IMG/VR virus record: IMGVR_UViG_3300005583_000005
Coordinates: 1 to 39,072 of that record
Reading direction: 5' to 3' (one strand)
Length of the DNA stretch: 39,072 bases
Source of the DNA: a virus
Shown here: piece after piece, positions 6,799-37,070 of the stretch
How positions within the stretch are numbered: position 1 is the stretch's first letter
How the letters are laid out: each line of letters starts with the position of its first letter
Notes under the pieces: generated by a model
What the model was told of the DNA's origin: nothing
The model's input: the letters and a program-made list of their open reading frames with translations, nothing else
Database searches by the model: none
Made by a program: the position numbers and the translations under genes

Positions 6799-6873
<75 letters not shown>

Positions 6874-14032: not shown

Positions 14033-14042
14033 AAATTAAGTC

Positions 14043-14627
14043 TTAAGTTAATGTTTGCCATCTTAAATATTTTCTGTATTCTTCTGAACTAATCTCTAAA
14101 GGGTCAACCCACCAGTCTTCATGGATATCTCTTACCACTAGAGTATATCCTAATGAATCAAGAATTTCTCTTTGGGCCTCGCGCATACCGCGATTTCTGA
14201 AATACATATTAGCGTCATGCTCAAATGTTATAACAGAGAATCTATATTGAGTCAATGGCACAGTTATCAGTCCATGGAGAGTCGTATAAGCGTTCCCTAT
14301 AGGTCTCATAGAGAGGTCATAGCCTCCGTCTATATCAACTTGTAAATAATCTATTTGTTTTGGGAAGTTATTAGCTTCAAAATAAGAAATATAATCAAAC
14401 TTTAGGGCATCACCAAAACAAGGATTTTTTCTGTTAGAAAGAAACTCTTCTCTACGTTGATCTACTATCTCAAAAGAAACACCTTTCCAATCATAGTCAT
14501 TTTCAAGATGGTATGTATTGCTGCCTATCGTAGAATCAAAGCCACCTAACTCTACGTAGTATCCATTTCTTTTCCCCTTTAGGAGGTCTACTACAAACTT
14601 TTCTTGTTGGCTATTTCCTTTGTACAT
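14043..14627 (-). CDS. FkbM-like SAM-dependent methyltransferase
   Basis: The 194-residue protein resembles FkbM-family methyltransferases, which O-methylate sugars or natural products. It has QEKFVVDLLKGKRNGYYVELG, a motif I-like GGFDSTIGSNTYHLE, KGVSFEIVDQR after it, and LQVDIDGGYD as the later acidic motif. FkbM proteins are usually somewhat longer (~220-270), so this is a compact version. Its position between two oxygenase genes suggests that it modifies the same product. GGAAATAG precedes the start. Confidence 0.65.
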   Translation of the reverse strand: MYKGNSQQEKFVVDLLKGKRNGYYVELGGFDSTIGSNTYHLENDYDWKGVSFEIVDQRREEFLSNRKNPCFGDALKFDYISYFEANNFPKQIDYLQVDIDGGYDLSMRPIGNAYTTLHGLITVPLTQYRFSVITFEHDANMYFRNRGMREAQREILDSLGYTLVVRDIHEDWWVDPLEISSEEYRKYLRWQTLT

Positions 14628-14628
14628 A

Positions 14629-15573
14629 TTAGTTTTTGTCCTTTTTCCAATAATATTCTTTTACTACAGGGTTATATAATAAATCAAAATCTTTGCCCGG
14701 TGGCGGGTTATGATAATCTAAAACAACACAGTTAGGGGCAATTTTATCTTCCGCCAAACGTATTTTCTCCATTTTCAACCATTCTTCCTCACCATGTTTG
14801 GCTACGCCGTCAATCCAATTTTGGCTGGCTGGCTGGTTATACATTAGATAGTTTCTAGAAATAAATTTGTTTCCATTTCTTATTGTGCGAACACCATGGA
14901 AATATGGTTCATCGCCAGGAAAAAGATATGAACCGGAAGGAAAAACCACTACATCTCCTGCAACGGGCTTATAATCTATAACCTTACCATGCACTAAATA
15001 CGTTACTTCACCTCCGTCATAGTCATCATTCCAATAGATATTGCAAGTAAGCATAAAGTTCTCACATGGTCTAAGTATTTTATCTAAATGAAAATCAGTA
15101 TGATACTGCATTGTCAACGGTGGTTCAGGGTTGTCAGTAGTCCCAATCGACGCAACGTCTTGATCATATTTGGCAAAGTTGATTGAAGGTTGGATATATG
15201 TTTTAACATCTTCTGCATATCTTCCGGTTCTCATGTCGTACTTGCCCATATAATGGCTAAACGCTGCCGCCCTAGCATTGACTGTGGAATGGGCTGCTCT
15301 TTTTTCTCTATCAAACAAGCTATCGCCATCATTCAAATCTTTTTCTTCTTTTTGTTGGGAAAGAGCATCTCCGCTTACCGAAACATATGTTCCAAAACCA
15401 AACCATTTACCCCAAACTGGCAAAATCCCAGGTTTTTCTTCTTCTGTTACAAGAGAAGAAGATTTTAGACTCTCACTAATCGCGTCGACATCTCTTATCA
15501 GGTTTTTATAGACAACAATATGTGGGTATATCTCCTCGTGAATGAATTCAAGATCATTAAAAGTAATCATCAA
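14629..15573 (-). CDS. 2OG-Fe(II) oxygenase, larger form
   Basis: The 314-residue protein has the dioxygenase ligands H158-T-D160 (QYHTDFH) and H226 (YFHGVRTI), with R240 or K236 as 2OG partner. GGEVTYLVHGKVIDYKPVAGDVVVFP is the family's usual core, split over two strands. The N-terminal ~120 residues are extra compared with short phage P4H proteins and may bind the substrate. A GAGGG site and a clear promoter lie before it, so it starts its own transcript and leads the lipid/oxygenase operon down to 9827. Confidence 0.85.
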   Translation of the reverse strand: MMITFNDLEFIHEEIYPHIVVYKNLIRDVDAISESLKSSSLVTEEEKPGILPVWGKWFGFGTYVSVSGDALSQQKEEKDLNDGDSLFDREKRAAHSTVNARAAAFSHYMGKYDMRTGRYAEDVKTYIQPSINFAKYDQDVASIGTTDNPEPPLTMQYHTDFHLDKILRPCENFMLTCNIYWNDDYDGGEVTYLVHGKVIDYKPVAGDVVVFPSGSYLFPGDEPYFHGVRTIRNGNKFISRNYLMYNQPASQNWIDGVAKHGEEEWLKMEKIRLAEDKIAPNCVVLDYHNPPPGKDFDLLYNPVVKEYYWKKDKN

Positions 15574-15600
15574 AATACCCTCTTTATAGATTTAGCCTAT

Positions 15601-15630
15601 ATCATACCATGTAAATAATCAGCACTGCAA
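15601..15630 (-). promoter_or_regulatory. Sigma70-like promoter of the oxygenase/lipid operon
   Basis: In the 15574-15694 gap, on the minus strand, TTGCAG (15625-15630), an 18-nt spacer and TATGAT (15601-15606) form a promoter. It resembles the TTGCAA-N18-TATAAT promoter near 1.3 kb. GAGGG lies before the ATG at 15573. Nothing else was seen in the gap. Confidence 0.55.
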
Positions 15631-15694
15631 GTTAAAAAACGGTAATCTGATATCGTATGTTTAAAAAAAAATACCAATAATTGTATTAAATTTG

Positions 15695-16240
15695 TTAATC
15701 TTTAATGTGCCAAAAACAAGGAGCAATCCATTTTCTACCTGATGTGATCTCAAGAACGTGATGCAAAAAGATTTCATCTGTGCTAGGAAACGCTATTAAA
15801 GTTGCTGCTTTAGGCTTCATCTTAATAGATAAATTAGGAAACTCTATCTCTCCACCTGTATATGTATCATTTAAATACAGCACGCTGCTTATGTCTCTAA
15901 GGTGTCCCGTAGAAGTGCGTGCGTCGTAATATAATTCTCCATTTACATATCCTAAATTATCAGTATGTAATCGAAGGGTGTCGCCAACTTTATATTCTAT
16001 AATGTTATTAAAAGTTTCATCATATAAAGAAACATGATAAAAGTTTTCTATTTCTTTTTTAGAGTTAAGATATAGATGATGAAATCCGTCATACAAATCT
16101 GAAGGTATGTTATATGTTCCTAAAGTAGACTCTTGTCCTTCTATGTAATTTGATTCTGAAACATTAAGCCAATTGTTCAATGAAGATAAATAATCTATAT
16201 CAATCACATTTTCAATCAAAAATATTTCATTTTTAATCAT
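15695..16240 (-). CDS. 2OG-Fe(II) oxygenase, prolyl-4-hydroxylase type
   Basis: About 181 residues, with H92-T-D94 (LRLHTDNLG), a histidine pair at about 160-161 (FLHHVLE) and R169 (SGRKWIAPCFW). GGEIEFPNLSIKMKPKAA is the P4Hc core. It is close in size and layout to the enzyme at 1375-1959. I chose the ATG at 16240 because it overlaps the previous stop (ATGA) and follows GGAGAAAG; a GTG at 16252 would add four residues. A promoter separates it from the next gene downstream. Confidence 0.85.
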   Translation of the reverse strand: MIKNEIFLIENVIDIDYLSSLNNWLNVSESNYIEGQESTLGTYNIPSDLYDGFHHLYLNSKKEIENFYHVSLYDETFNNIIEYKVGDTLRLHTDNLGYVNGELYYDARTSTGHLRDISSVLYLNDTYTGGEIEFPNLSIKMKPKAATLIAFPSTDEIFLHHVLEITSGRKWIAPCFWHIKD

Positions 16241-16509
16241 GGCTTTCTCCACTGAGAAGGAGAATGAGATTCTTCTATAAGAGCTTTATGTTCAGCGTCT
16301 TCGTATAGCCTTATCATATGCATACACGGGTCACCGCCTTCCGCAAACTCATTATCTTCTTCTTCGTTCATAGGAAAGCTATCATGAGTATAGCATACTG
16401 CTGGTCCACACCAGTTCTCTACCATGCCTATTTCAAGCCATTCATCAAAAGTAACTTTATTAAATATAGCATTTAGCAGTGCTTTTCTGGTTTCGTGATT
16501 GTCCGGCAT
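16237..16509 (-). CDS. Small acidic hypothetical protein
   Basis: A 90-residue protein with three cysteines (NWCGPAVCY, GGDPCMHM) and an acidic middle (MNEEEDNEFAEGG). The Cys and His residues could bind a metal, but no family was recognised. It is coupled to the following oxygenase gene by an ATGA overlap. Confidence 0.5.
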   Translation of the reverse strand: MPDNHETRKALLNAIFNKVTFDEWLEIGMVENWCGPAVCYTHDSFPMNEEEDNEFAEGGDPCMHMIRLYEDAEHKALIEESHSPSQWRKP

Positions 16510-18643: not shown

Positions 18644-19258
18644 CTATTTAGTAAAATCTTGAACATGAGTCCTAAAAGGAGGACCAGTGTAAGGGTCAAA
18701 TTTAGCAGCTACATTTAAGGCTTTTAAAGCTAAAGACTTAGCTTGAGAAACTGTTTGTATTTTTTTACCTGCAGTTAAAGCAGTAAGTGCACCTAATGCA
18801 TAGGTACTACCAGAACCTAAAGCATAGATTCCATTGCTGTCAGAAGACCAAGCGTAATCAGAATCTACTACATATACAGTTCCAGATATAACGGCTAAAA
18901 TAGTAGAGGCTTGTTCTGCAATGTGTTGTTTGTCTTCATTATTATCCGGAGAAGCATAGCCTTGTTTTTCAAAACAATCGCGTAAAGCAGGTATAAATTT
19001 AACAGTAAAAAATTGATCTAGTTTTTTACCTTTTAACCCAGGCGAAACAGGAGGAGGAACAAAAGCATGATGCAATATGTTTATTGCTCTTACGTCGCCG
19101 GCTGCGCCCAATAGATACTTACCGTTTACGGCTACTTTACCGCTATTTTCTCCTAAAGTAGAAATTGTAGCAAATCCGTCTGATTCCATTGCTGAAATCC
19201 TAGAATCTACTGCTACTACCGCAAAACTGTCACCTTGTATTGCAACTATAGTTGTCAT
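18644..19258 (-). CDS. HslV/proteasome-beta-like Ntn-hydrolase protease subunit
   Basis: The ~204-residue protein starts MTTIVAIQGDSFAVVAVDSR, as HslV (MTTIV-) and proteasome beta subunits do. Removal of Met1 would expose the catalytic threonine. The other catalytic positions are visible: D18 (VDSR) and K41 (SGKVAVNGKY), then GAAG. IYALGSGSTYALGA is the later conserved GSG stretch. Such subunits form self-compartmentalised rings that degrade proteins fed in by AAA+ unfoldases. I chose the ATG at 19258, since AAGGAG lies seven bases upstream; a start seven codons earlier would bury the threonine. No hslU gene is in the window; the AAA ATPase at 28824-30452 is the nearest candidate partner. Confidence 0.85.
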   Translation of the reverse strand: MTTIVAIQGDSFAVVAVDSRISAMESDGFATISTLGENSGKVAVNGKYLLGAAGDVRAINILHHAFVPPPVSPGLKGKKLDQFFTVKFIPALRDCFEKQGYASPDNNEDKQHIAEQASTILAVISGTVYVVDSDYAWSSDSNGIYALGSGSTYALGALTALTAGKKIQTVSQAKSLALKALNVAAKFDPYTGPPFRTHVQDFTK

Positions 19259-20627: not shown

Positions 20628-20641
20628 AACCTGTTATAGCG

Positions 20642-20715
20642 CCTTCGGTATGATTCGAACATACGACCTGCGGATTAGAAGTCCGTTGCTCTATCCAACT
20701 GAGCTACGAAGGCAG
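20642..20715 (-). tRNA. tRNA-Arg (anticodon UCU)
   Basis: The acceptor stem GCCTTCG (from 20715) pairs with CGAAGGC (20649-20643), with discriminator G at 20642; CCA is not encoded. The loop CTTCTAA places UCU at 20681-20679. D-arm and T-arm (TTCGAAT loop) are normal. It reads AGA, a codon much used by this AT-rich genome. Its 5' end overlaps the last codons of the 20704-21198 gene. Confidence 0.93.
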
Positions 20716-23411: not shown

Positions 23412-23440
23412 ATAGTATCACACACACATGCTAAAATCAA
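23412..23440 (-). promoter_or_regulatory. Sigma70-like promoter of the SSB/UDG block
   Basis: Minus strand TTGATT (23440-23435), a 17-nt spacer and TACTAT (23417-23412). It lies between the E2-like gene at 23437 and the MerR-like gene, overlapping the end of the former. AAAGG precedes the ATG at 23376. Confidence 0.55.
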
Positions 23441-24690
23441 GATTGAATGTATTCGCCATTAGAATCTTTTTCTAAAGAAGTATATATATTTTGAGAATTT
23501 ATTTCTTTAAAAGCTATGTTTAAAGAAGGTATTGTTCTTTTAACAAGAATACCGTCAAGAGCTTGCAAAATATTAGTTAAAACTTGTTCAAAAGATTTAT
23601 GACAAAAACGAAGAGAATTTTTATATTCTTGAAAATATGCTTCCCAACCTTCGTCTGAATATTCGTCTTCATCACAACTTTCTACATACTCGTCGTGTAA
23701 TTCATTGCGATCTACGGAATCAGCGTCAGAGTATTTCGCAAAAGAAGGAGATGGAAACGGAGACATACAAACTTGATCAAGAGTAAGGTTTTTAACTATA
23801 CTACAATAAGAATACAAAAGATTATGTCTGCTATGCGTTAAACGCCTATTTACTGTATCGTTGTTTAATTGAATATAAACAGACAACAACTGCTGTGATT
23901 CAAATAGATTTAAAGAATCTTGAAGAATAGGATTTAAGTTTTTTTTAAAAGAATCTGTTGGACCAGCATCTACGTCTATTGAACGATTATTATTAAACAA
24001 TAAAAAATATTCGTTTAAAGTTTCATATAAATCTAAATTCCAACCACTATTCCAAATAGAATCATAAGCCGAAGCAATAACTCCAGAAATATCTTTTGAG
24101 TACTTATCAACATCATTCATATTAGGATAAAAAGGTCTACACAATTGTCCATTTCCAAAAAAGTTAGGAAGAACAGGAGCATAAACCGGTTCACCAAAAC
24201 CCATTTTAGAAATTGCATCGCGGCTATAAAACATATATGTATCTAATAAACAATAGTCATCATTAAATAAACATACGTAAATTTGCCAAGGTATTGGCAA
24301 GTAATAAGTATCGGGTTCATCATCGTTGCTTATAGAATCACGATCAGTTGAATGATGACTAATTAATTTATTAGTTGGAGGGTTTTCAAAGATCAAAATA
24401 TTTTTTCCTAAAGACACCAAACCAGGAGGGATCAAACCACTATCATTATATGTTTTAAATCCGATAATGCTGTCTATTGTTTTTTTATGTTCGCTAGATT
24501 CAAAATATAATGGTTGAGTTTGGCTACTGGTATACATAGAATTTTGCGTAAAACTAACGCAATCCAAAGAATTTGAACGACCCATATTTCCTACAAAAGT
24601 ACCCAAATTTAAAGCTTTTTGTTTTTCGCTATAATCAAAAAAGCTAAGACCAGAAAAGCAAGTAGCCATAATTTCAAAATCATTTATCAT
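23437..24690 (-). CDS. E2-like (UBC-fold) protein, first of two related neighbours
   Basis: The 417-residue protein has a central stretch (residues ~128-220) resembling Prok-E2 family D (PRTRC protein B) proteins: YYLPIPWQIYVCLF, then LPNFFGNGQLCRPF and NSGWNLD. The cysteine C184, after the NFFGNGQ turn, sits where the E2 active-site Cys would be. E2-like proteins pass an activated ubiquitin-like protein from E1 to a target. The next gene upstream in transcription encodes the same pattern (VPWTVYKM, FPNVFNGGLICFG, NGGWNTD). The long N-terminal and acidic C-terminal parts are unassigned. Assignment rests on short patterns and needs profile comparison. Confidence 0.5.
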   Translation of the reverse strand: MINDFEIMATCFSGLSFFDYSEKQKALNLGTFVGNMGRSNSLDCVSFTQNSMYTSSQTQPLYFESSEHKKTIDSIIGFKTYNDSGLIPPGLVSLGKNILIFENPPTNKLISHHSTDRDSISNDDEPDTYYLPIPWQIYVCLFNDDYCLLDTYMFYSRDAISKMGFGEPVYAPVLPNFFGNGQLCRPFYPNMNDVDKYSKDISGVIASAYDSIWNSGWNLDLYETLNEYFLLFNNNRSIDVDAGPTDSFKKNLNPILQDSLNLFESQQLLSVYIQLNNDTVNRRLTHSRHNLLYSYCSIVKNLTLDQVCMSPFPSPSFAKYSDADSVDRNELHDEYVESCDEDEYSDEGWEAYFQEYKNSLRFCHKSFEQVLTNILQALDGILVKRTIPSLNIAFKEINSQNIYTSLEKDSNGEYIQS

Positions 24691-24698
24691 AATTTTCC

Positions 24699-25919
24699 TT
24701 AAAAAGTATTGGTTAAAGTAGAAGGATTTTTAGAATCTTCGTGAGCAATAATATTGTTCAAAACTTGATATATGTCTTCTTGAAGAAGGTTATTTGAACA
24801 AAGGTATTGCTGACCGCTTATTGGATCTCGATCATAACGTAACGTTTTTATTTTTTGATTATAAGCATGATAGTTGGGTTTAACCATCATCTTACGAAAA
24901 TGCTCGTCTATTTCCGCTGAGTTATAACGAAAAAGACGATTTTCAAAATCTACATTAATTAAAGAAGATAAAGAAATTACTTGGCGTAAAATAAGAGGAT
25001 CAATGCAAGTTCTGTATAGATAAAGAAGTTCTTCTAATGAATACTTAGACCATATGTTTAAAGCGTTAAGATACATTGCAACGTGGCTATCTTTATGTTT
25101 AACCGGAGTACATTTTGCCATAGCATTAGAATACATTTCCAAAGCTGCAGGATCATTTAAAGCTTTTATGCGATCATAAGACTGAAATAGCATAAACATA
25201 GGAATATCAGAGCTACTAGGTAAAATATCGGTATTCCAACCACCGTTATAATAGTTCGAAATTAAATAATTAAATAATTCTTTATAAGAATAAGTATCGT
25301 CTTTAATGGAACTTTCTACAAAATAAGAATTGATTGTAGAATCAGAACCAAAGCATATTAGTCCACCATTAAAAACGTTTGGAAAAATACAAGAAAAAAC
25401 ATGATCATTTAACGAAGATATAGGAGAATCGTTAAAATGGATCGTTATAGCAAAAGTGCCTTGTTTATTAATCTGCATTTTATAAACAGTCCAAGGAACC
25501 CAAACGGTAATAGGTTCAATTTTTTTATTGCCTTTTTTGTTAACCTTAGAAGCTTTGACTGGAGTAAAATCTATAGTATAACGAAACGGAGGACGCTCTA
25601 CTAAAATAGAACCGTTTTCAGAAATAAACCTAGTAGCTGTTGGAAATATTTTCTTTAAAACTGAAAGATAATTGTTATCTAAAGATTTTAAAATAGAATT
25701 AGATTGTTGTATGGTTTCAAAGAAATCAAAAGCAGAATATTTAATATATTCAAATTCTATAGGTAAATCAGAACAAGTACTATATTTAGAAACTTTAATA
25801 ATATGAACTTCTTCGTTTTTTATTAATAAAGCAGAGTTGATAGAAGCCGGATTATCTTTTGTCTTATCTTCATCAACATAAAAATTAACTGGAAGTTTTG
25901 GATAAAGTTTATTAATCAT
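24699..25919 (-). CDS. E2-like (UBC-fold) protein, second of two related neighbours
   Basis: A 406-residue protein with VWVPWTVYKM (residues ~139-148), SCIFPNVFNGGLICFG (C189) and YYNGGWNTD. The PNV-(Y/F)-x2-G-x-(V/I)-C-x-G pattern is the usual signature around the catalytic Cys of PRTRC B/Prok-E2 family D. C189 is therefore the likely thioester site. It matches the neighbour at 23437-24690 in size and layout, indicating duplication followed by divergence. The C-terminal ~170 residues (helical, YLYRTCIDPLILRQVIS) have no known counterpart. It is 8 bases upstream of its paralogue. Confidence 0.55.
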   Translation of the reverse strand: MINKLYPKLPVNFYVDEDKTKDNPASINSALLIKNEEVHIIKVSKYSTCSDLPIEFEYIKYSAFDFFETIQQSNSILKSLDNNYLSVLKKIFPTATRFISENGSILVERPPFRYTIDFTPVKASKVNKKGNKKIEPITVWVPWTVYKMQINKQGTFAITIHFNDSPISSLNDHVFSCIFPNVFNGGLICFGSDSTINSYFVESSIKDDTYSYKELFNYLISNYYNGGWNTDILPSSSDIPMFMLFQSYDRIKALNDPAALEMYSNAMAKCTPVKHKDSHVAMYLNALNIWSKYSLEELLYLYRTCIDPLILRQVISLSSLINVDFENRLFRYNSAEIDEHFRKMMVKPNYHAYNQKIKTLRYDRDPISGQQYLCSNNLLQEDIYQVLNNIIAHEDSKNPSTLTNTF

Positions 25920-27562: not shown

Positions 27563-27853
27563 CTAACTTAAGGATTGTTTTTCAAAGTGGCTAAAAGAAA
27601 TAGCATTATTTTTTAAATGATTAATTAAAGAATCATCAGAAATAAAAAACAAAGAAAATATATCTGAATTAACTTTTTGAGCTAATGGGTATATTTGATT
27701 AATGTAATACAAATTATTACATATGATTTTATGACTATTGTCATTTAAGAACAATATCGATATACCGTTAGTCGGTAAAGTTAGATAGCTGTTCGCTAGC
27801 CAAGCTTTCAATGGCTGACGAAATTCCTGGATCACTTGAGCCCAAGAGGTCAT
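27563..27853 (-). CDS. Hypothetical protein overlapping the upstream gene
   Basis: A 96-residue frame whose ATG follows AAGGAG at close distance, but it overlaps the preceding gene by 86 bases, which is long for this genome. A later start inside the frame (e.g. TTG near 27748) would avoid the overlap. The sequence after residue ~20 (GISILFLNDNSHKIIC) looks like real protein. No family recognised. Confidence 0.4.
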   Translation of the reverse strand: MTSWAQVIQEFRQPLKAWLANSYLTLPTNGISILFLNDNSHKIICNNLYYINQIYPLAQKVNSDIFSLFFISDDSLINHLKNNAISFSHFEKQSLS

Positions 27854-28187
27854 TAGCTCCTTCTTTCATTATTTCTAGCATTTGTTTGCGAGACTTGTTT
27901 ATAGTATCGTGAAATGCTTTTTTAGATTCTTCAGAAGAAAAAGCCATTTGGGCAATCAATGCATCCATAAAGACAGCTTGTTCACCAAAACCAATTACAA
28001 GTGTAGCAATTTGCTTTTCAAAATTTTCCAAGTACTTTTCAAACTCTTGCAATCTACCTTCTAAGGTAGACGCTAAAGTCATAAGAACTTGTTCTACTTG
28101 GTTTTTATAATCAATGTCTTGCACGTGCTTGTCAATTAAGTCTTCGTCAAGCGAGTAAGCATCGCCTAATTCTTCATATTCGGTCAT
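27768..28187 (-). CDS. Helical hypothetical protein
   Basis: 139 residues, almost entirely helical, with a long charged central helix (LEGRLQEFEKYLENFEKQIA) that may be a coiled coil. No family recognised. It is coupled to the upstream gene by ATGA and lies in the Ubl block just downstream of the AAA ATPase gene. Confidence 0.55.
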   Translation of the reverse strand: MTEYEELGDAYSLDEDLIDKHVQDIDYKNQVEQVLMTLASTLEGRLQEFEKYLENFEKQIATLVIGFGEQAVFMDALIAQMAFSSEESKKAFHDTINKSRKQMLEIMKEGANDLLGSSDPGISSAIESLASEQLSNFTD

Positions 28188-28810
28188 TGTTCATACCAAT
28201 CTGAGTTGTTTGCTACGTAAGCTGCTAAAGATAAATCTAAAAGATATGATATAGAACATATGTCTTGTCTTGTAACTTTAATAAAATCAACAGATATAGG
28301 TGATTTTAAATCTGGTATAAAAGCTCCACTCTCAGACTTGCGTGCTGCAAAATGACCGCATTTCCAAGCAAAAGAATTAGAATCAAAAGAATCACCATTT
28401 TGCCAATAATGGGACTTAAAGATTCTGCTGACAGGCTTACCATTAATCTCAGAACCACCGTAAGAAGAGAATCCTTCAGGAGAAGGAATGCCAGTTCTTT
28501 CATTGGCTGGATAATTAGTAACCGCAGTTCCGTTTGCTATTGACTTTAAATATGCTGCAAAATCAAAAGCATCGAGATAAACATTAGTAGAACTAATTAA
28601 CTTGCCTTCTGGAGCAGTTTTTCCAATATCAATTTTAAATTTCATTCCTTCAAACCAAGGCTTAATGGCTAAAAAACCACTGCTTGTTTTTGAACGAAAC
28701 CATTTTTTGTAAAGTTCAGTAGTAAACTGCTTTGGAGGAATTGGATTAAGCTCATCTGAGCCTTCTTGGTCAATTCCATTTAAAAATTCTTTTACATCAA
28801 AATTAGACAT
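28184..28810 (-). CDS. Hypothetical protein next to the AAA ATPase
   Basis: About 208 residues beginning MSNFDVKEFLNGIDQEGSDE. I chose the ATG at 28810 because a GGAG site precedes it; an upstream reading from 28900 would lie inside the AAA gene. The region FLAIKPWFEGMKFKIDIGK and a later WKCGHFAARKSESG are distinctive, but no family was recognised. Its position directly after the ATPase suggests an adaptor or substrate of that machine (inference). Confidence 0.55.
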   Translation of the reverse strand: MSNFDVKEFLNGIDQEGSDELNPIPPKQFTTELYKKWFRSKTSSGFLAIKPWFEGMKFKIDIGKTAPEGKLISSTNVYLDAFDFAAYLKSIANGTAVTNYPANERTGIPSPEGFSSYGGSEINGKPVSRIFKSHYWQNGDSFDSNSFAWKCGHFAARKSESGAFIPDLKSPISVDFIKVTRQDICSISYLLDLSLAAYVANNSDWYEQ

Positions 28811-28823
28811 TTGTTTTCTCCTA

Positions 28824-30452
28824 TTACCAATTTGATTTTTGAGGTGTGGATCTAACCATACTTCTAGAGGTATAATTTCCAGAAATAACTTTAGAAGCAT
28901 CTTCTAACTGAGAAGATGAAGCAAAATCCCACTGTTCAATTGCGGACTTATACAGTGATATAATAGCATCTCTGTTTTTATTCCAAAGTATGTTGCGCAT
29001 TTTCGGCGCTTTTATAAGTATATCATTAGTATTTAAAGTTCGCAATTCAGAAGAAACAACAAAGAAATTAGTTTCTTTAATCAAAGACTTTATTTCTGCT
29101 CCAGTAAATCCAGTAGTTGATTCAGCAAGAGCATCAAAATCCCAGTTATGATTAGTTTTAATATCAGAAAGATATATCTTTAATATTTCTTTACGCTCAA
29201 ACTGTGAGGGTAAACCAACAAATATTATTTTATCAAATCGTTCTGCTCTAAGCATTTCTGGTTTTAGGTTCTCAATCTGATTTGCTGCACAAATAAGAAA
29301 AACATTTTCAGGAAGTTCTTGAAGACCAGTTAAGAATTCACCATGAACTCTGTCAGTGGTGCCACCGTCTACATGAGAAGAGCTTTGACCACCTGACATA
29401 TCACGGCCAAATTCATCTATCCAAACACACAAAGGAGCCATAACTTTAATTTGTTTAAAAACAGCTCTCATGTTAGCTTCTGATTGTCCAACAAAAGAAT
29501 TCATAACTTGGGCAACTCCGGTTCTAGCTAAATCAAGACCTAATTCATGAGCAGTAGCTTCACAAATAGCAGATTTACCAGTGCCCGGAACTCCAACCAT
29601 TAGTATTCTTCTAATAGGTTGAACACCAAATTTCTTAGCTTCTTCTGGGTTATTCCACAACCATACATTTTTCTTGATAATATCTTTAGCATTATCTAAG
29701 CCACCAATATTATCAAATGTAATTTTAGGTTTAACAATTTCCAAAATTCCATTTTGTTTTATTTTAGACATTTTAGTGTCATAAATATATTTAGAAGATA
29801 TTTTTTTATTCTTAATAATAGATAGCAAACAAAGATTAATAAAAAGCGATTCAGATAAACCTAAAGCACTGCGCGCTATATCTTGTGCAGTTCCGTCTTC
29901 TACAAACAAATTATCACTTATAGTAGCAAAATGATTTAATATTTCTAGCATTTCTCCTATAGACAAAGGCTCAGAATCGTTAACGCTAAAGATAGAAGAA
30001 TATTCTTCTGGACAATCAAAACCTGTAATAAATATGTTCTGCATTGGCAGTAAAGTTAGATCATCTGCAAAGAAAGAATTTCTATAAGAATAATTAAACG
30101 AAGATATAACTGGGCCATATGCTTCAAGAAAGCTTTTTGGATCAGTATAAAAACTATGGATAAAAGCAATCGAAGACATGTTTTCGTTAGTTTTCTTTAA
30201 ATGCTGATAAGCAACTACGAAATCATATGTTGTATCTTGAGTAATGCTTCCATCTTCTGGATTAGGAAAATCTACCAATACTGGTTTCCACGTTTTTTCT
30301 ACTAATTTTGAAAAACCTAAATTTGGAATAATGCTATAAAAATTTCTAATTTTAGAATTAATTACAAAATCATTAATTCTATCAACGTCTTCTGTTTTAA
30401 TCCACAATAGTGGAGTTCCTAATTTAATTTGTTCAAGTATCATATTTTCCAT
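28824..30452 (-). CDS. AAA+ ATPase (classical AAA, CDC48/FtsH-like unfoldase domain)
   Basis: The 542-residue protein has one classical AAA module at residues ~245-460: FDNIGGLDNAK, Walker A GVPGTGKS (287-294), Walker B VWIDEF (D346, E347), sensor-1 N391 and the second region of homology with arginine fingers R402 and R405 (LRAERFDKIIF). The hydrophobic pore-loop position is not clear. The N-terminal ~240 residues are unassigned and probably bind substrate or adaptor. Such ATPases unfold proteins or remodel complexes. It lies between the Ubl gene and unknown genes, and could feed the HslV-like protease at 18644. A 9-bp hairpin sits just before its start, and no good ribosome-binding site is seen. 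Confidence 0.85.
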   Translation of the reverse strand: MENMILEQIKLGTPLLWIKTEDVDRINDFVINSKIRNFYSIIPNLGFSKLVEKTWKPVLVDFPNPEDGSITQDTTYDFVVAYQHLKKTNENMSSIAFIHSFYTDPKSFLEAYGPVISSFNYSYRNSFFADDLTLLPMQNIFITGFDCPEEYSSIFSVNDSEPLSIGEMLEILNHFATISDNLFVEDGTAQDIARSALGLSESLFINLCLLSIIKNKKISSKYIYDTKMSKIKQNGILEIVKPKITFDNIGGLDNAKDIIKKNVWLWNNPEEAKKFGVQPIRRILMVGVPGTGKSAICEATAHELGLDLARTGVAQVMNSFVGQSEANMRAVFKQIKVMAPLCVWIDEFGRDMSGGQSSSHVDGGTTDRVHGEFLTGLQELPENVFLICAANQIENLKPEMLRAERFDKIIFVGLPSQFERKEILKIYLSDIKTNHNWDFDALAESTTGFTGAEIKSLIKETNFFVVSSELRTLNTNDILIKAPKMRNILWNKNRDAIISLYKSAIEQWDFASSSQLEDASKVISGNYTSRSMVRSTPQKSNW

Positions 30453-30537: not shown

Positions 30538-30792
30538 TTAGAGACTACCTTTTTCGCCAGCACGACGGTGGAACTCAAGGTTGTCATTCTGTTGAACAAC
30601 ATAGTCTTCGTCCATCTTGTCTTTGCCTTTGTAGGCTGTAGCGTCAGAAGGAATTCCCCAAAGTTTAGAAAACTGTTCGCGAATTTCTTTGATGCTTCTT
30701 CCGGCAACAGGGCTTGCTTGTGAGTAAACGCCAAAACGAACGTTTGCTACACCCCCTGATGCATTTTCATTGTTGTTGCTATTGATTTGCAT
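30538..30792 (-). CDS. Ubiquitin-like (beta-grasp) protein, PRTRC C-like
   Basis: The 84-residue protein has a disordered Asn-rich N-terminus (first ~16 residues) and a beta-grasp-like body: VRFGVYSQASPVAGRSIKEI, then REQFSKLWGIPSD and DNLEFHRRAGEKG. The ending LEFHRRAGEKG closely resembles the C-terminus of PRTRC system protein C. After the likely conjugation Gly (G82) come two extra residues, SL, so processing by a protease such as the JAMM enzyme encoded two genes away may be needed to expose it. It lies directly between E1 and AAA genes. Good AAGGAG ribosome-binding site. Confidence 0.7.
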   Translation of the reverse strand: MQINSNNNENASGGVANVRFGVYSQASPVAGRSIKEIREQFSKLWGIPSDATAYKGKDKMDEDYVVQQNDNLEFHRRAGEKGSL

Positions 30793-30816
30793 TGTTATTC
30801 TCCTTGTTGGGATTAT

Positions 30817-31584
30817 TTATATATTTACATTAACTTTTACAGGTGAACGATCATATGGTTCAGATTTACCTACACCCAAGTCAAAGTATATCTCTGCTTC
30901 TGTAGGATTTTCTGAATTAACTATCGTTTTCTGTACGCGACCAAGTAAAAAGGCAGCAACTGCCATGTTTGTTGCAAGCAGCTGTGTTCCGCCTTCTATT
31001 TCTGATCTTTCTTGACAGGATAATTCTCCTGGGTTTTTATCTGGTGGATTCTCGTATTCAGGATGAAAGTTAACTGGGTGTTCAGTAACATCTTCTCCGT
31101 TCCTACGCTGATAATGATAAATGCTGCCAAACAAATCATCATCATTTCCGCCAGTAAAAATGTCTATATTTGCTATAGAAGTTGCTGCATCAAAGATAAT
31201 TTTTCTAGCAGCAAAGTTATCTACTACAGCAAAAACAACATCTCCTTCAGCAATTAAATCTGAAGCTTTAATTTTAGGAGAATCGCTGTCTGCAACTCCT
31301 TCATAGTTTTCTCCTACGATCCATTTTGGAACAGGAATAATAGTGGTATTATTAAATTGGACAGAAAGCTCATATGCTTTAACACTGGCCTTATTACCAA
31401 TTTTAGTAAAGTCTTGTCGCTCTTTGTTCTTTTCTTCATAAGTATCACCATCAACTATAATTAGTGCAGAACCAGGAAATTTCCATTCTAATAGCCGGAC
31501 TAAACCAGCAGCTAACCAAGTGCCAATTCCACCAGCACCGATAAGTATAAATCGATGTTGTTTTGTTTCATTTTGATCTGACAT
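30817..31584 (-). CDS. ThiF/E1-like Ubl-activating enzyme
   Basis: The 255-residue protein has the E1/ThiF Rossmann signature FILIGAGGIGTWLAAGLVR (G16, G18, G19, G21). It continues with LIIVDGDTYEEKNKERQDF (D45, N53, R56), matching the ATP-binding D-x-D-x-VE-x2-N-x2-RQ pattern, and later VDNFAARK. C190 in GELSCQERSE, before GGTQLLATN, is the likely thioester cysteine. E1 enzymes adenylate the Ubl C-terminus and take it on as a thioester. It is close to the ThiF protein of PRTRC cassettes. The downstream gene codes for the Ubl and the upstream genes for the JAMM and E2-like proteins, as expected for one pathway. Confidence 0.85.
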   Translation of the reverse strand: MSDQNETKQHRFILIGAGGIGTWLAAGLVRLLEWKFPGSALIIVDGDTYEEKNKERQDFTKIGNKASVKAYELSVQFNNTTIIPVPKWIVGENYEGVADSDSPKIKASDLIAEGDVVFAVVDNFAARKIIFDAATSIANIDIFTGGNDDDLFGSIYHYQRRNGEDVTEHPVNFHPEYENPPDKNPGELSCQERSEIEGGTQLLATNMAVAAFLLGRVQKTIVNSENPTEAEIYFDLGVGKSEPYDRSPVKVNVNI

Positions 31585-31603
31585 TTTTTTCCAATCTTTT
31601 AGT

Positions 31604-33301
31604 TTAATCTAAATATCTATCATTTTCGTAAGTGTAAGACGAAGAAGAATCATAAGCAAGATAATCTTTGCATGTGTCAAAGAAAGGGCTAGATGGATCT
31701 TCTCCCGTTTTTGCCCAATCAATTACTAAATTCCTATATGGAGCACATGTAGGAAGTAAATAATTTGCACAAGAAACGCATTGAGAGCTTTCTTCGTATA
31801 TGGCTAAATTAGGAAACTTAAGTTCAAAGTCATACATATCGTCAACAGTAACTGTTGGGTTGCAAGGGCAATCTTCAGCTATTGAATCTATATGAGTATT
31901 ACAACAAAGTGTGTACTCAGAATAAGAATTCCATGGGTTGTCAGACCATGCATTATTATCTAAATTTTTAGCATCGATTTGTTTTGCAATGCTTTCATCT
32001 GAAACTTTATCTCCATAAATATGGAGAAACATATATTCAGTATTGATATCTTTACACATGTAGTAAATATCAGTAAATGCAGGATATGTTTTATAAGTAT
32101 TGGTTTCATTAACTATTTCATGAGCATAGGTAACTAATTCAATAATTTCAGATACAGTATCACTAGGTGTTGCTATATAGTTTTGACATCCACCGCAAAC
32201 GCAATTTTGAAGATCAACATTTGATACTTCCCAATCACAAAGCGGACATTTAGGATCTATAGCTTTATCATCTACTTCTACAACGAGAACAGCTCCTTTA
32301 GGAATGTCAAGATCTGTAATTTTTTTAGTTGCCCCACCAGCTGTAGTCGTCTCCGTAATTTGAGAACTTGCTAGAGCCGGCTGAATTGGAAGCTGGTATT
32401 GCTGTGCCTTGGTAACCCCCGTAGCCGAATACGGGGGCAGTGCTTTTTTTGAGACATTGTGCGCCCATTCTATTACTTCAGGATCGGGATCTTTAATCTT
32501 TTTATCTAAATCAAAAACATCTTCAATGTTTAGTACAAATGCAGTTCCTGACATTTGCATTTCAGCATAGTATTGAGTCGCACCATTGTTAACTGTTTTC
32601 TGCCATCCATAAGTAATATGGATACCGTCAAAGTCTGATTGATCTTCATGATCTGTACCGGAAGCATAAGCTGCCATTCCAGGATGAGAGTGTACAGATC
32701 CAACAATAGAAAGATGATATGGCTTTAAAGCCACAATAGAATCTGGATCATACTTACAGTGAACTGAAGTGTTTTCTTGTTCTGGAACTAAAATTCCCCA
32801 AGAATCAGAAGAATCTGGATTAGCAGCATCAAACGTTAAGAGAACAATTGATTCAGTGCCAAGTTGAGCTTCCACCAATCTAAAGAATTCATCAAGTTTA
32901 TTGACAATAGTCATAGGAATTGGAGGAAGAGCATATATAGCTTCTGGTTCTAAGCCAACATAATTTCCGTCTAAAGAATCTTTAGAAAGAGAAATAGTTC
33001 TACCAATCATATTTTTAACAACTTTAAATATAACTGCTTCACGAGATTCTTCAGTATACTTAGTTGTTGTAGCAGGAACTTGAACACCGCCTGTCCAAGT
33101 TGCTGGTTTAGTTTGAGTAAATTCTTTAAAAGTAGATTTATCAGATATTAAATAATAAATATTAATACCTAGATTTTCTATAATCTCACAAATGTTTTCT
33201 TTGTTTCCAAGAAAACAAGGAGAACCATTTGGAAGCCAGAAATAATCTAAATCTTCTAAAGTATATGTTTTTTCTTCTGTTATTTCATTTTTTTTGGACA
33301 T
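31604..33301 (-). CDS. JAMM/JAB-domain protease fused to zinc-binding region
   Basis: The 565-residue protein carries a complete JAMM motif H204-S-H206-P ... S214-G-T-D217 (HxH-x7-S-x2-D), the zinc site of JAB isopeptidases such as Rpn11 and PRTRC protein A. The usual upstream Glu may be E150, but this is not certain. After the JAB domain comes a region with many cysteine pairs (CPLC, CVCGGC, CCN, CPCN, CVSC), suggesting two or more zinc ribbons. Such enzymes trim Ubl precursors or remove Ubl from targets. It is 19 bases upstream of the E1 gene. Prokaryotic JAB proteins are usually under 250 residues, so this one is notably long. Confidence 0.85.
   Translation of the reverse strand: MSKKNEITEEKTYTLEDLDYFWLPNGSPCFLGNKENICEIIENLGINIYYLISDKSTFKEFTQTKPATWTGGVQVPATTTKYTEESREAVIFKVVKNMIGRTISLSKDSLDGNYVGLEPEAIYALPPIPMTIVNKLDEFFRLVEAQLGTESIVLLTFDAANPDSSDSWGILVPEQENTSVHCKYDPDSIVALKPYHLSIVGSVHSHPGMAAYASGTDHEDQSDFDGIHITYGWQKTVNNGATQYYAEMQMSGTAFVLNIEDVFDLDKKIKDPDPEVIEWAHNVSKKALPPYSATGVTKAQQYQLPIQPALASSQITETTTAGGATKKITDLDIPKGAVLVVEVDDKAIDPKCPLCDWEVSNVDLQNCVCGGCQNYIATPSDTVSEIIELVTYAHEIVNETNTYKTYPAFTDIYYMCKDINTEYMFLHIYGDKVSDESIAKQIDAKNLDNNAWSDNPWNSYSEYTLCCNTHIDSIAEDCPCNPTVTVDDMYDFELKFPNLAIYEESSQCVSCANYLLPTCAPYRNLVIDWAKTGEDPSSPFFDTCKDYLAYDSSSSYTYENDRYLD
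32416..32437 (+). repeat. GC-rich hairpin with T-run inside the JAB gene (antisense terminator-like)
   Basis: CCCCCGTA (32416-32423), a 6-base loop and TACGGGGG (32430-32437) are followed after 6 bases by TTTTTTT on the plus strand. It has the form of an intrinsic terminator for transcripts running against the JAB gene. As mRNA of the JAB gene it would form the same stem. It might instead be a pausing or folding element. Confidence 0.6.
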
Positions 33302-33312
33302 AGTATCCTTCT

Positions 33313-35163
33313 TTATAATGTATTTTTTGGTATGTGATTAAGGTAATTTTGAGTTAGAGTAGAAAGCGATCCCATATTTTTAAGATCAAATTTACTAGGA
33401 TCGTATTCATAATTCATAGATTCTTGGTTAAAACATACGCATGAAGCGCAAGCATTCTGGCAAGAAACAAAACCGTTAAGGTTGTGTTGAATATCATAAT
33501 GCTTTGCAATTAAATTAAAAGCATCAAAGGGATTTTTAAGTGCCACCATTGTGTATGAATCTATATCTTTAAGAGATTCAGGAGAAGCAATTTGTTCGTA
33601 ACCAAAAACTTCAGCTGATCTTAAATTTCCACAAGGACAAACAGTTGATGATGATTGTTTGCCACAAGTTAAATGCATATGTGCATCAATAATTTCAGAA
33701 GTATCTGGATTAATGAAAGAAATAGATTCAACATAAGATTTATATTCTGGATTCATTGGAAGACTTTTACTGCATACAGCACAGTTTGCTTGAATAAGTT
33801 GATCAGCGTATTCAAAGCATTGTGTACATCTATCATATTCTGAAGTTTCAGAATTCAAAAATACCATAAAATTATTATTAAATTTTTTGTTATAATGAAC
33901 TTGACCACAACCCGTACAATGAGTTATATGTGGTCCATTAGCGTCAACCCACATGTCTATCTCTTCTAGGTACTGAGCATTTCCAGTTTGTAAATGAATA
34001 TCATGTCCACTGTTTTCACAGTAAACATATTGTTCAGAATAACAATCTTGGCAAAGAACGCCATCGTCAACAACCGTGTGGTTATCTTCGCTGTAGTTAT
34101 AATATTCTTCGCAAGATATACAAAAATATTGTTCATTTTCGTCATGATCATTACCATCATTATTATCACCATTACCATTAGGATTAGATGAAAGAGCGTG
34201 AGTATCACGAACTTTTTGAACATAAGTATATGGATCTAAATTCTCAGGCTTTTCTTGTTTTAATTTAGAAAGTTCATAAGATTTTTTAACTAAACTAAAT
34301 ACATAGTCTTCGTCAAATGTTTTATCTTTTCGAGCTATTTTATTTACTGGTTTAGTATGAGTTGTGTCCGAGTAATAAGCTTGGTAATCACCGGTCAAAG
34401 CCATGCCTAAAGTTAAAGGAACACCGTTTTCATAATGCTTGTCTTGGTGGTCTTGGTCTTGAACTAGAACTGGTATCCAAGTTCCTTCATTTAAGGTCCA
34501 CAAAAAGCCTTCTTTAGTAGTCTTTTCTTGCCATTCTGTTGGCGAAGTCAAATAAGCAGGTTTGTTATTCATGCGATAAAAGCGAGGACCATCTGTTTCG
34601 CTCATATTGCCATCATTGTAGGCTTCGTCGCCAGAACATCTTTCTATAAGTCTTGCAACTTTTTCCCCAAGGGGAATATTACTCCAATCAGAAGTATGGT
34701 ACAAGCACACCCAGCCAACTGCATTGCCTCTGTAACCTCTACAATTCATATTGGGAAGATTAGTATGATAAAGTTCTTGAGAAGGAGATGTTATAGGATT
34801 ATAAGAATAAAATATTCTAGCACCATAAAAATTACCGTCTAGTATATCTCCAATGTATATCTTGTAAGGTTGAGCCAAAAAATATGTTTGGACTCTTCCG
34901 CCTTCTGATTCTCCCCATAAAATTCTAGAAACAGCAGGCGCTGTTTGAACTACAATTTGTGCGTGATTACCTGCTTGCCGGTAAGCCAAAAGGCCAGTTC
35001 CGTCAAGAGGCAACAAGCCAGTATCAAAGTGAGCGTATTTTGAAAAGTTAGTGAAAAAAGATGAAAGATCTTTATCAGTAACATGATCAAGATTCATAGA
35101 TTTTACAGTGCTGCGAACTGCAACATATTTATCTTTATCTTGAATTAAAGAATATTCTATCAT
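33313..35163 (-). CDS. E2-like protein fused to a multi-zinc (RING/ribbon-like) region
   Basis: The 616-residue protein has an N-terminal part (~residues 45-200) matching Prok-E2 family D: VQTYFLAQPYKIYIG, LYHTNLPNMNCRG, GWVCLYHTSDW. C153 is the likely active-site Cys, with C141 a second candidate. After a linker, residues ~345-560 hold about nine CxxC pairs (CISCEEYY, CQDC, CTGCGQ, CTQC, CAVCSK, CPCG, ...), the pattern of treble-clef/RING-type or ribbon zinc fingers. An E2 fused to such a region could combine conjugating and ligase-like functions. It is the first gene of the E2-JAB-E1-Ubl-AAA order on this strand, 11 bases from the JAB gene. Confidence 0.65.
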   Translation of the reverse strand: MIEYSLIQDKDKYVAVRSTVKSMNLDHVTDKDLSSFFTNFSKYAHFDTGLLPLDGTGLLAYRQAGNHAQIVVQTAPAVSRILWGESEGGRVQTYFLAQPYKIYIGDILDGNFYGARIFYSYNPITSPSQELYHTNLPNMNCRGYRGNAVGWVCLYHTSDWSNIPLGEKVARLIERCSGDEAYNDGNMSETDGPRFYRMNNKPAYLTSPTEWQEKTTKEGFLWTLNEGTWIPVLVQDQDHQDKHYENGVPLTLGMALTGDYQAYYSDTTHTKPVNKIARKDKTFDEDYVFSLVKKSYELSKLKQEKPENLDPYTYVQKVRDTHALSSNPNGNGDNNDGNDHDENEQYFCISCEEYYNYSEDNHTVVDDGVLCQDCYSEQYVYCENSGHDIHLQTGNAQYLEEIDMWVDANGPHITHCTGCGQVHYNKKFNNNFMVFLNSETSEYDRCTQCFEYADQLIQANCAVCSKSLPMNPEYKSYVESISFINPDTSEIIDAHMHLTCGKQSSSTVCPCGNLRSAEVFGYEQIASPESLKDIDSYTMVALKNPFDAFNLIAKHYDIQHNLNGFVSCQNACASCVCFNQESMNYEYDPSKFDLKNMGSLSTLTQNYLNHIPKNTL

Positions 35164-35175
35164 TATTAATTTCTC

Positions 35176-35544
35176 CTATGACAATAAATTAGATATTGTA
35201 GAATCAATATCACCTTGAAAATCTCCAAAAGCAGAAGCAAACCAATTTGGTTCTTTTTCAGCTAATTCAATAACTTTAAGCTTTTGCACTAAAGCATCAT
35301 GATGTTCAATAATATCGGCAACTCTGTCTAATGCTTTAGCAAGTTTTTTTAACTCTTTACGAGAATGAGTAATACCTAAAATTGGTTTGATAATAGGTAT
35401 GTCGTCAATTGTAAAATGTTCGACAATACGGTCAATTCTTTCTGACAACATATCAACTTTTTCTGAAATATCTTTTTTAGCTTCTAAAGCAAGTTTTAAG
35501 GAAAAAGTAAAAGATGTCATATCTTTATCGTATTCTTCAGCCAT
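35176..35544 (-). CDS. Coiled-coil hypothetical protein
   Basis: 122 residues, largely helical with alternating charges (KKDISEKVDMLSERIDRIVEHF and KELKKLAKALDRVADIIEHH), indicating coiled coils. No family recognised. It lies 13 bases upstream of the E2-fusion gene, so it is probably expressed with the Ubl system. Confidence 0.55.
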   Translation of the reverse strand: MAEEYDKDMTSFTFSLKLALEAKKDISEKVDMLSERIDRIVEHFTIDDIPIIKPILGITHSRKELKKLAKALDRVADIIEHHDALVQKLKVIELAEKEPNWFASAFGDFQGDIDSTISNLLS

Positions 35545-35923: not shown

Positions 35924-36424
35924 TTAACCTTTCTTAAACAGTCTGTATTTTTTGCCATCAGAGCCAAAGTAATTTATAAGAATCTCAAAAAGAATCATAA
36001 AAATTATTGTTGATGGATTAAAATAATTAAAGTATATATTTAAAATTAGTATTATAAATAGAGTCAAAGAACCTGCAATCATTCCAGATATAGCAACAGA
36101 TGATCTGTATTCATCGGAAAGATTTTGAGATCTTACCATTCCTATAATAAAGAATGGTAATGGTACAAATAATGGAAAAGAAGTTTTTGCTCCAGAAGAT
36201 TTAGAGTATATATAATGAGCAAACTCATGGGAGATAACAGAAAACAATGATAAAAGAACTACATCAATTCCAAAAAAATAATAGTTTATTTGAGCAGCAG
36301 CAACTGCTGTCATAATAGTATATATTAGATTAACTTGTGATCTAGTATCCGTCTTTAATAAAAAATAATCATTAAAGACAATAGCTTTAGTTTGAAATAT
36401 TTTTTGATAAGATGCTTTTAACAT
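35924..36424 (-). CDS. Site-2-protease/M50-like membrane metalloprotease
   Basis: About 166 residues with several hydrophobic segments. SVISHEFAHYIYSKSSGA holds a zinc HExxH motif in a membrane segment, followed by a Pro/Phe-rich hydrophobic loop, as in M50 (S2P) intramembrane proteases. A second conserved region could be YFNPSTIIF with a nearby SDG, but the usual DG motif spacing is not clear. S2P proteases cut membrane-bound regulators or signal peptides. The start is uncertain: 36424 has no ribosome-binding site and 36472 is also possible; both overlap the preceding gene. Confidence 0.6.
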   Translation of the reverse strand: MLKASYQKIFQTKAIVFNDYFLLKTDTRSQVNLIYTIMTAVAAAQINYYFFGIDVVLLSLFSVISHEFAHYIYSKSSGAKTSFPLFVPLPFFIIGMVRSQNLSDEYRSSVAISGMIAGSLTLFIILILNIYFNYFNPSTIIFMILFEILINYFGSDGKKYRLFKKG

Positions 36425-37070
36425 AATCTTTTGTAACAATAGACTTAATTTGATTTTGCATAAAGTCTCCATGTCCTACATAACCATCATCATTCATGTC
36501 TGGTTGTGGATCAGCTAAGTTTGGATTAACCGGTAAGTTTAACTCTTTGCCTAAAGCAGAATATATAAGTCGTTCTTTAGCGTTGACATTTAGCATAATA
36601 TTGAGCATTGTTTTAAAAAATACATGAACATACATATGATTGATGTCAACGTTTATAAATTTACTTAATTCTTTAAAATCGTTGTTCTCGATATCAGACA
36701 TAGCTTTTACAACTTCAATGATAGTGTGTCTTTGAGAAAGTTGAGATTCTACTTGATAAAAATAAAAAGTTTTAGAATAAAGACCATCAGTTAATTTATC
36801 TAAAATAATATGAGTAGCTTTAGTAAAAGCTGAAACCTTAGCACCGTCTAACCAGTTGCCTGTAGCTTCAAACAAAGATATAGCTATTTTAGCTCTTACA
36901 TTGTCTGTTTTAACATCTGTGATAAAATCTTTAGCGTCGAGGTCTATATTGTGTTCATTCCGCATATGGTTAGCGAACGTGTTAGCAATATGCTCGCTGT
37001 CTGATTGGTTAGAATCATCATTGAAAATATCATCATCATTATTATTCAAAAGATAATCGTCGTATGACAT
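36387..37070 (-). CDS. Hypothetical protein
   Basis: 227 residues with an acidic, Asn/Asp-rich beginning (NNNDDDIFNDDSNQSDSEH) and a helical body. No family recognised. AAGGAAT lies before the ATG at 37070; TATACT at 37091-37096 (minus strand) may be a -10 box. The gap 37071-37166 shows nothing else. Confidence 0.5.
   Translation of the reverse strand: MSYDDYLLNNNDDDIFNDDSNQSDSEHIANTFANHMRNEHNIDLDAKDFITDVKTDNVRAKIAISLFEATGNWLDGAKVSAFTKATHIILDKLTDGLYSKTFYFYQVESQLSQRHTIIEVVKAMSDIENNDFKELSKFINVDINHMYVHVFFKTMLNIMLNVNAKERLIYSALGKELNLPVNPNLADPQPDMNDDGYVGHGDFMQNQIKSIVTKDYVKSILSKNISN

Follow-up and report, generated by a model that had tools for sequence, protein, structure and literature searches.

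A probable ubiquitin-like conjugation cassette, related to PRTRC-type systems, in a conserved block of large freshwater phages

The window analysed here, a whole IMG/VR virus record of 39,072 bases (IMGVR_UViG_3300005583_000005), carries a cassette of genes encoding a ubiquitin-like protein (Ubl), an E1-like adenylating enzyme, a JAMM metalloprotease and E2-like proteins. The initial annotation had placed one gene of each kind in a single run at positions 30538 to 35163. All of these open reading frames (ORFs) lie on the minus strand as described, and, together with an adjoining AAA ATPase gene, they keep the same order in every one of the 33 loci that hold all five genes. The fold, the family matches and the catalytic residues likewise supported the identification of a phage-borne Ubl/E1/JAMM/E2-like set. 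The cassette was larger than annotated, since two E2-like proteins of family D, the AAA ATPase and a proteasome-like peptidase are also encoded in the window. The genes at its centre are as follows.

33313 to 35163, minus strand: E2Zn, an E2-like domain (ca. residues 46 to 230) fused to a CxxC zinc-finger region, with Cys153 as candidate cysteine
31604 to 33301, minus strand: JAMM/JAB metalloprotease with an N-terminal extension and a Cys-rich C-terminal region
30817 to 31584, minus strand: E1-like adenylating enzyme of the ThiF family, 255 aa, candidate catalytic Cys190 (SCQ)
30538 to 30792, minus strand: Ubl, 84 aa, a single beta-grasp domain ending RRAGEKGSL
24699 to 25919, minus strand: E2-like protein, Prok-E2_D (PRTRC_B-like) copy 1, matching PF14460 (E 0.02) over the active-site region, with Asn181 and Cys189
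23437 to 24690, minus strand: E2-like protein, Prok-E2_D-like copy 2, a paralogue of copy 1 by cross-matches, with the same invariant Asn and Cys

Viral contigs were scanned with the E1, which yielded 14 loci in a first scan and 37 in a later one. Thirty-five records, the window included, formed one family with E1 identities of 66 to 98%; 24 distinct E1 sequences were present among the 33 five-gene loci, and many records were near-duplicates. Comparisons were made by family searches, profile searches of the PDB, Foldseek (cut-off E ≤ 0.001), VIA-align and hhalign.

No database family matched the Ubl, and neither its sequence profile nor that of the E1 gave a meaningful match in the PDB. An AlphaFold model of the Ubl, built with 27 sequences, contained strands at residues 16-20, 23-27, 52-55, 58-60 and 71-75 and a helix at residues 34-45, with a core pLDDT (predicted local distance difference test) above 90. 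Its best Foldseek matches were ubiquitin, NEDD8, SUMO and the Bacteroides Ubl BfUbl (probability 1.00, template modelling (TM) score 0.54-0.71). The model, the Foldseek matches and the alignment identify a ubiquitin-like beta-grasp protein with a free C-terminal Gly tail, and the fold predicted in the initial annotation was thus confirmed. The C-terminal AGEKG was found in 35 of 35 loci, two of them with the variant SGEKG, and some Ubls carry a two-residue extension (SL or NI) behind it; C was listed as another extension.

The E1 matched PF00899 over the cut-off (E 5.8e-12) and also the ThiF/MoeB families, while its match to PRTRC_ThiF (E 4.1e-7, 29.6 bits) was far under the 144.75-bit cut-off. 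The GxGGxG motif, D45 and D47 (DxD), N53, R56 and Q57 (NxxRQ), K65, VDN and the SC cysteine were invariant among phage E1s and plasmid PRTRC-like E1s. The PF00899 match and this residue set, which comprises the adenylation-domain residues and the cysteine, place the enzyme in the ThiF/E1 superfamily and substantiate the full nucleotide-binding pattern noted before. The JAMM protein matched Prok-JAB slightly under the cut-off (E 1.3e-4) and PRTRC_A weakly (E 0.03, 13.8 bits of a 101.8-bit cut-off). Its zinc site, H204-S-H206-x7-S214-x2-D217, was invariant in nine diverse sequences together with E150, so that the previously reported HxH-x7-S-x2-D motif is part of a complete JAMM/JAB metalloprotease signature (E...HxH-x7-S-x2-D). 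A relation to the PRTRC, Prok-E2 and JAB profiles was therefore visible in part: PRTRC_ThiF, Prok-JAB and PRTRC_A matched under their cut-offs, whereas the Ubl and E2Zn gave no match.

E2Zn, which matched no database family, was the protein read as the E2 in the initial annotation. Its motif LPNxNCxGYRGNxVGWxCLY, in which N135-L-P-N138, C141, GYRGN, GW151 and C153 are invariant in 23 sequences, and a profile-profile alignment with the family-D E2s by hhalign (46%, E 2e-4) spoke for that reading. The CxxC pairs of the C-terminal region were also invariant. An AlphaFold model of residues 1-310, built with the same number of sequences (23), had a pLDDT of 82 and a predicted TM score (pTM) of 0.77 and showed a beta-rich part, the motif loop and a helix at residues 165-176. 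In VIA-align the model matched ca. 11 E2 structures over ca. residues 46-229 at low scores (Z 2.4-3.1, root-mean-square deviation 5-6), below the best row, PURA (Z 4.2, 61 residues). Polymerases headed the Foldseek rows and were discarded as fold relatives (TM ca. 0.1). The E2 assignment of 33313-35163 was thus supported in part, by its motif, the profile match and the low-Z structural matches, and support for the UBC fold that it implied was weak. We regard E2Zn as E2-like with moderate confidence; in view of its zinc region, it may be a fusion of E2 and E3.

The two family-D proteins, which lie outside the coordinates of the initial annotation, are better supported as E2s than is 33313-35163. 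One Asn and a Cys eight residues later were invariant in 18 sequences covering both paralogues, and the family-D profile matched annotated plasmid E2 family D proteins. The active-site motifs of the window copies, PNVFNGGLICFG and PNFFGNGQLCRP, can be set beside those of Ahniella PRTRC_B (GNVDGMGRVCTG), Cytobacillus (PNIGVNHGICWG), Nostoc (PNVYSSGQVCWG) and Parcubacteria (LPNIHGSDPYEMCLG). Copy 1 reached 15.0 bits against a PF14460 cut-off of 25 and copy 2 gave no match; these proteins are predicted to work like E2s and are not formal Prok-E2_D members.

The order E2Zn-JAMM-E1-Ubl-AAA was collinear in all five-gene loci, and the two family-D E2 genes lay downstream in 32 of the 32 loci showing either one. 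Between two distant members of the family (193 kb and 268 kb records), 135 proteins were shared, among which the E1 ranked 11th by identity (74%). The same pair showed 90% identity in the major capsid protein, 81% in ribonucleotide reductase, 72% in ThyX, 72% in RecA, 71% in DNA polymerase III alpha and 71% in terminase, these names having been read from the sequences. The rank of the E1 and its conservation at the level of RecA suggest a core role. Pairwise ratios of nonsynonymous to synonymous substitution rates (dN/dS), calculated for the window against L004, were 0.10 for the E1, 0.10 for a conserved protein encoded behind the AAA ATPase, 0.12 for the single-stranded DNA-binding protein (SSB), 0.15 for the proteasome-like peptidase, 0.19 for the AAA ATPase, 0.28 for the JAMM protein, 0.28 for E2Zn and 0.53-0.56 for the family-D E2s; the low values of the E1, the peptidase and the AAA ATPase are indicative of purifying selection. 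The cassette lies in a block with the SSB and uracil-DNA glycosylase (UDG) genes and not in the structural block.

A gene for the actinobacterial regulator WhiB was found in 14 of 16 records searched (it was found neither in the short window nor in the record of the second clade described below), and among 14 control genomes only Corynebacterium gave a match. Because of this distribution, the host is most likely an actinobacterium. The cassette is thus probably a conserved core block of a freshwater phage family of ca. 200 kb with actinobacterial hosts. The moraphages, a new lineage of large aquatic phages with Bacteroidota hosts, were considered as this family and proved to be a different group. 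One 268 kb genome (G010, L012 + L063) carries the whole cassette and the peptidase twice, in diverged copies close to either end; this could reflect a chimera formed from two related phages, or a genuine duplication.

A second clade, unrelated-looking to this family, also carries E2-JAMM-E1-Ubl. It comprises four viral contigs (L076, L077, L103 and L104) and a contig of a Woesearchaeota metagenome-assembled genome (MAG) (L079), and its cassette core adjoins genes reading as RNA polymerase beta-prime/beta subunits and a second ThiF-like gene. Its Ubls matched ThiS weakly. In four Ubls scanned (L076, L077, L079 and L103), fusion to one or two Rho_N/SAP-type nucleic-acid-binding domains was observed beside the phage RNA polymerase genes: an N-terminal Rho_N was over the cut-off in L079 and L103 and below it in L077 and L076, and the L103 Ubl had two Rho_N copies and also SAP. 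These fusions recall eukaryotic SUMO E3s, in which SAP domains occur. The four viral records, which are partial, showed neither an AAA ATPase nor a peptidase. The order E2D-JAMM-ThiF was also found on plasmids. In a Cytobacillus plasmid (L095, 1550-1891), an ORF annotated as hypothetical encodes a tandem Ubl with two AGTKG ends, as would be expected of a processed polyprotein; it reads as a bacterial precursor of the polyubiquitin kind. A Parcubacteria MAG contig (L078) contains two consecutive E2D-JAMM-E1 sets, with no recognised Ubl.

The remaining genes of the cassette and its surroundings are as follows.

35176 to 35544, minus strand: conserved small protein directly upstream of E2Zn in the same run, 38-96% identity, in 13 of 14 first-scan loci
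28824 to 30452, minus strand: AAA+ ATPase with a Cdc48/VAT-like AAA domain (PF00004, E 7.5e-25), directly after the Ubl
28184 to 28810, minus strand: conserved protein of unknown function directly after the AAA ATPase, 62-99% identity in relatives, dN/dS ca. 0.10
27768 to 28187, minus strand: conserved small protein in the same gene run, 40-96% identity in 14 of 14 first-scan loci
18644 to 19258, minus strand: proteasome/HslV-like N-terminal nucleophile (Ntn) hydrolase starting (M)TT, with Thr1, Asp17 and Lys

The AAA gene always adjoined the Ubl gene in the family. Its profile matched archaeal VCP-like/Cdc48 ATPase best in the PDB (E 6.5e-66), with PAN at 3e-34, and its layout recalls Ycf46. 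The AAA ATPase and the gene that follows it were considered as a pair common to other phages; the AAA ATPase was common there and the following gene was not. The peptidase belongs to PF00227 (E 3.3e-8, 33.8 bits against a cut-off of 22.4), and Thr1, Asp17, Lys (Lys33) and GxAGD were invariant in the aligned peptidases. In HMMER this profile also matched alphaRep and KdpB, which was taken as chance.

As judged from sequence, the cassette probably encodes a self-contained cascade of Ubl conjugation and deconjugation of a PRTRC-related (type 6d) kind; the recurrence of its core order in the second, RNA polymerase-bearing clade and the E2D-JAMM-ThiF order on plasmids support this. We infer thioester transfer, conjugation, the targets and the downstream consequences as described below. 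The JAMM protease would trim the Ubl after the glycine of AGEKG where an extension (SL, NI or C) exists. The ThiF-like E1 would then adenylate the C-terminus of the Ubl and take it onto Cys190, and one or more of the three E2-like proteins (E2Zn and the two family-D E2s) would receive the Ubl and pass it to target proteins, from which the JAMM protease would remove it again. The linked AAA ATPase could unfold or extract tagged proteins, and in most members the peptidase could degrade some of them. Judging from the gene neighbours, the most likely role is to tag, reversibly, proteins with which the phage replicates and transcribes its genome. A core function in infection is suggested by the RecA-level conservation of the E1.

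Several points weigh against this cascade. Its link to replication and transcription is drawn from the gene neighbourhood, the Ubl tail has a single Gly (KG) and not GG, and the Ubl and E1 may serve as a sulfur-carrier pair or in another non-conjugating role. The fold evidence for E2Zn was weak, with a best E2 Z of 3.1 and no Foldseek match at the cut-off, and the family-D E2s matched under the curated cut-off and evolve fast (dN/dS ca. 0.5).

A further reading is an analogue of the ubiquitin-proteasome system, in which chosen proteins would be tagged and destroyed during infection by the joint action of the Ubl, the E1, three E2/E3-like enzymes, the JAMM protease, the Cdc48-like unfoldase and the proteasome-like protease; we consider it unlikely as a whole. 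Equally doubtful is its detailed form, with targeted degradation as the main purpose: the AAA ATPase would recognise and unfold tagged host or early phage proteins and pass them on to the peptidase, and the JAMM protease would recycle the Ubl. The peptidase, with intact Thr1, Asp17 and Lys, always lies 10-12 kb downstream of the E1 on the same strand in the records that have it (25 of 35), and the nearest matches to the AAA domain are VAT/Cdc48 and PAN. However, among the 32 records long enough to be informative (the other three are too short), seven (G005-G009, G012 and G013) carry the cassette and the downstream region, and the peptidase gene was not found in them. Conversely, nine isolated or deposited phages, including the actinophages DSL-LC01 and Pumpernickel, encode a related peptidase (best match 47%, in Actinomycetia phage DSL-LC01), and no E1 was found in that collection (INPHARED, E 0.01). 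The peptidase was thus ruled out as an obligatory partner of the cassette, each occurring without the other. Relatives of the AAA ATPase occur in Pseudomonas, Rhodobacter and Rhizobium phages in neighbourhoods without Ubl, E1 or JAMM genes. No HbYX proteasome-docking motif of the PAN/Mpa kind was present at the C-termini in 35 AAA loci, and the records of the RNA polymerase-bearing clade, most of which are fragments, showed neither AAA ATPase nor peptidase. Since the AAA ATPase and the peptidase are found apart from the cassette, the components can be separated, and we offer a degradation pathway as a hypothesis and not as a finding; coupling to degradation is plausible, unproven and, in our estimate, a minority prospect.

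The initial annotation had suggested that the cassette marks host defence proteins, regulates virion assembly or counters host Ubl-based defence. These roles were not supported as stated: the cassette lies with SSB/UDG genes or, in the second clade, beside RNA polymerase genes, and it is a core and not a patchy feature. Counter-defence genes usually are patchy, and a cassette that is a core feature of a whole phage family, conserved like RecA, fits poorly with tagging of host defence proteins or with stripping of host Ubl systems by the JAMM protease, for which a full conjugation machinery would also exceed the need. On the other side, many small unknown genes surround the cassette, and Ubl conjugation is known as a bacterial defence against phages (Hor et al. 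2024, as cited in PMC12660748); we rate such host take-over as improbable. Still less likely, indeed very improbable, is a ThiS/ThiF-like pair acting as a sulfur carrier in cofactor synthesis and not in protein modification. The E1 does match ThiF/MoeB, and the distant Ubls match ThiS weakly, but in both phage clades and on plasmids the two come together with E2-like proteins and a JAMM protease, the SC cysteine of PRTRC-type enzymes is preserved in the E1, and neither thiamine nor molybdopterin genes were noticed in the window. The conjugation cascade is accordingly the reading that we prefer.

The family searches also identified several 2-oxoglutarate (2OG)-Fe(II) oxygenases, the UDG and the SSB in the window. 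At least five, probably at least six, 2OG-Fe(II)-oxygenase-like genes, several of them adjacent, lie within the 39 kb (12630-16252, 1375-1959 and 9827-10534), beside genes for a fatty acid desaturase (10527-11453) and a ketoacyl-synthase-like protein (11440-12657). Conserved upstream of the cassette is a membrane protein that shows an HExxH-like pattern of M50 peptidases (35924-36472; PF02163, E 0.08). The window further contains tRNA-Gly(tcc) at 6799-6872, tRNA-Arg(tct) at 20639-20713, a long Gly/Ser/Pro-rich repetitive protein (4847-6112) and an ORF that is sulfotransferase-like by eye and without a family match (492-1310).

Prokaryotic E1/E2/JAMM/Ubl systems have been described on chromosomes, on plasmids and in antiphage operons, and a core block conserved like RecA in a phage family now adds phages to these locations; the core is held by the second, RNA polymerase-bearing clade as well. 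If the cascade works as proposed, phages would put reversible protein tagging to use in their own biology, ubiquitin-type systems would have a reservoir and possible vehicle in large phages, and the lytic cycle would offer a setting in which to test the function of PRTRC-like cassettes. With an unfoldase and a proteasome-like peptidase linked to the cassette, targeted proteolysis encoded by a phage becomes a concrete hypothesis.

No report of a full phage-borne E1/E2/JAMM/Ubl set was found in the searchable open-access literature. Phage TAPI/TAPK tail genes contain a Ubl and a JAB only, with no E1 or E2 (PMC1779556). BilABCD likewise holds a Ubl, E1, E2 and JAMM in one operon, but BilA has two Ubl domains and BilD an inactive and an active adenylation domain (PMC11354881), whereas the phage cassette, carried by the phage and not by the host, encodes an 84 aa single-domain Ubl and a 255 aa single-domain E1. 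The proteasome homologs AAH and PPH are already described in phages and actinobacteria (PMC8665760), and the peptidase shares with them an HslV/BPH-type Ntn hydrolase with Thr1 in phage genomes; at ca. 205 aa it is not the ca. 140 aa PPH, and its link to a Ubl cassette is absent from the accessible part of that description. The PRTRC system (TIGR03734-TIGR03742), for example on the Ahniella affigens plasmid NZ_CP027861, shares the ThiF-like E1, the JAMM protein (PRTRC_A), the E2-like family D (PRTRC_B), the order E2-JAMM-ThiF and similar active-site motifs. Membership in PRTRC was rejected, as none of the 12 records covered by these profile searches had ParB (TIGR03734), the actin-like PRTRC_D (TIGR03739) or PRTRC_B over the cut-off, and PRTRC_A and PRTRC_ThiF also stayed under theirs. 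The suspicion, raised when the ParB- and actin-like partners were missed, that the cassette is a distinct type was therefore well founded: it is related to PRTRC and differs from it in adding E2Zn with its zinc fingers, a second family-D E2 and an AAA ATPase, and in its location in a phage core. Type 6d operons of bacterial chromosomes and plasmids consist of an E1, a JAB with a JAB-N domain, a small Ubl with a conserved C-terminal Gly, a helical protein and an E2-like protein (Iyer et al. 2006, PMC1779556). The phage cassette resembles them in its small Ubl with a C-terminal Gly, its N-terminally extended JAB, its E1 and its E2-like proteins, and is set apart by having three of the latter together with an AAA ATPase and a linked peptidase.

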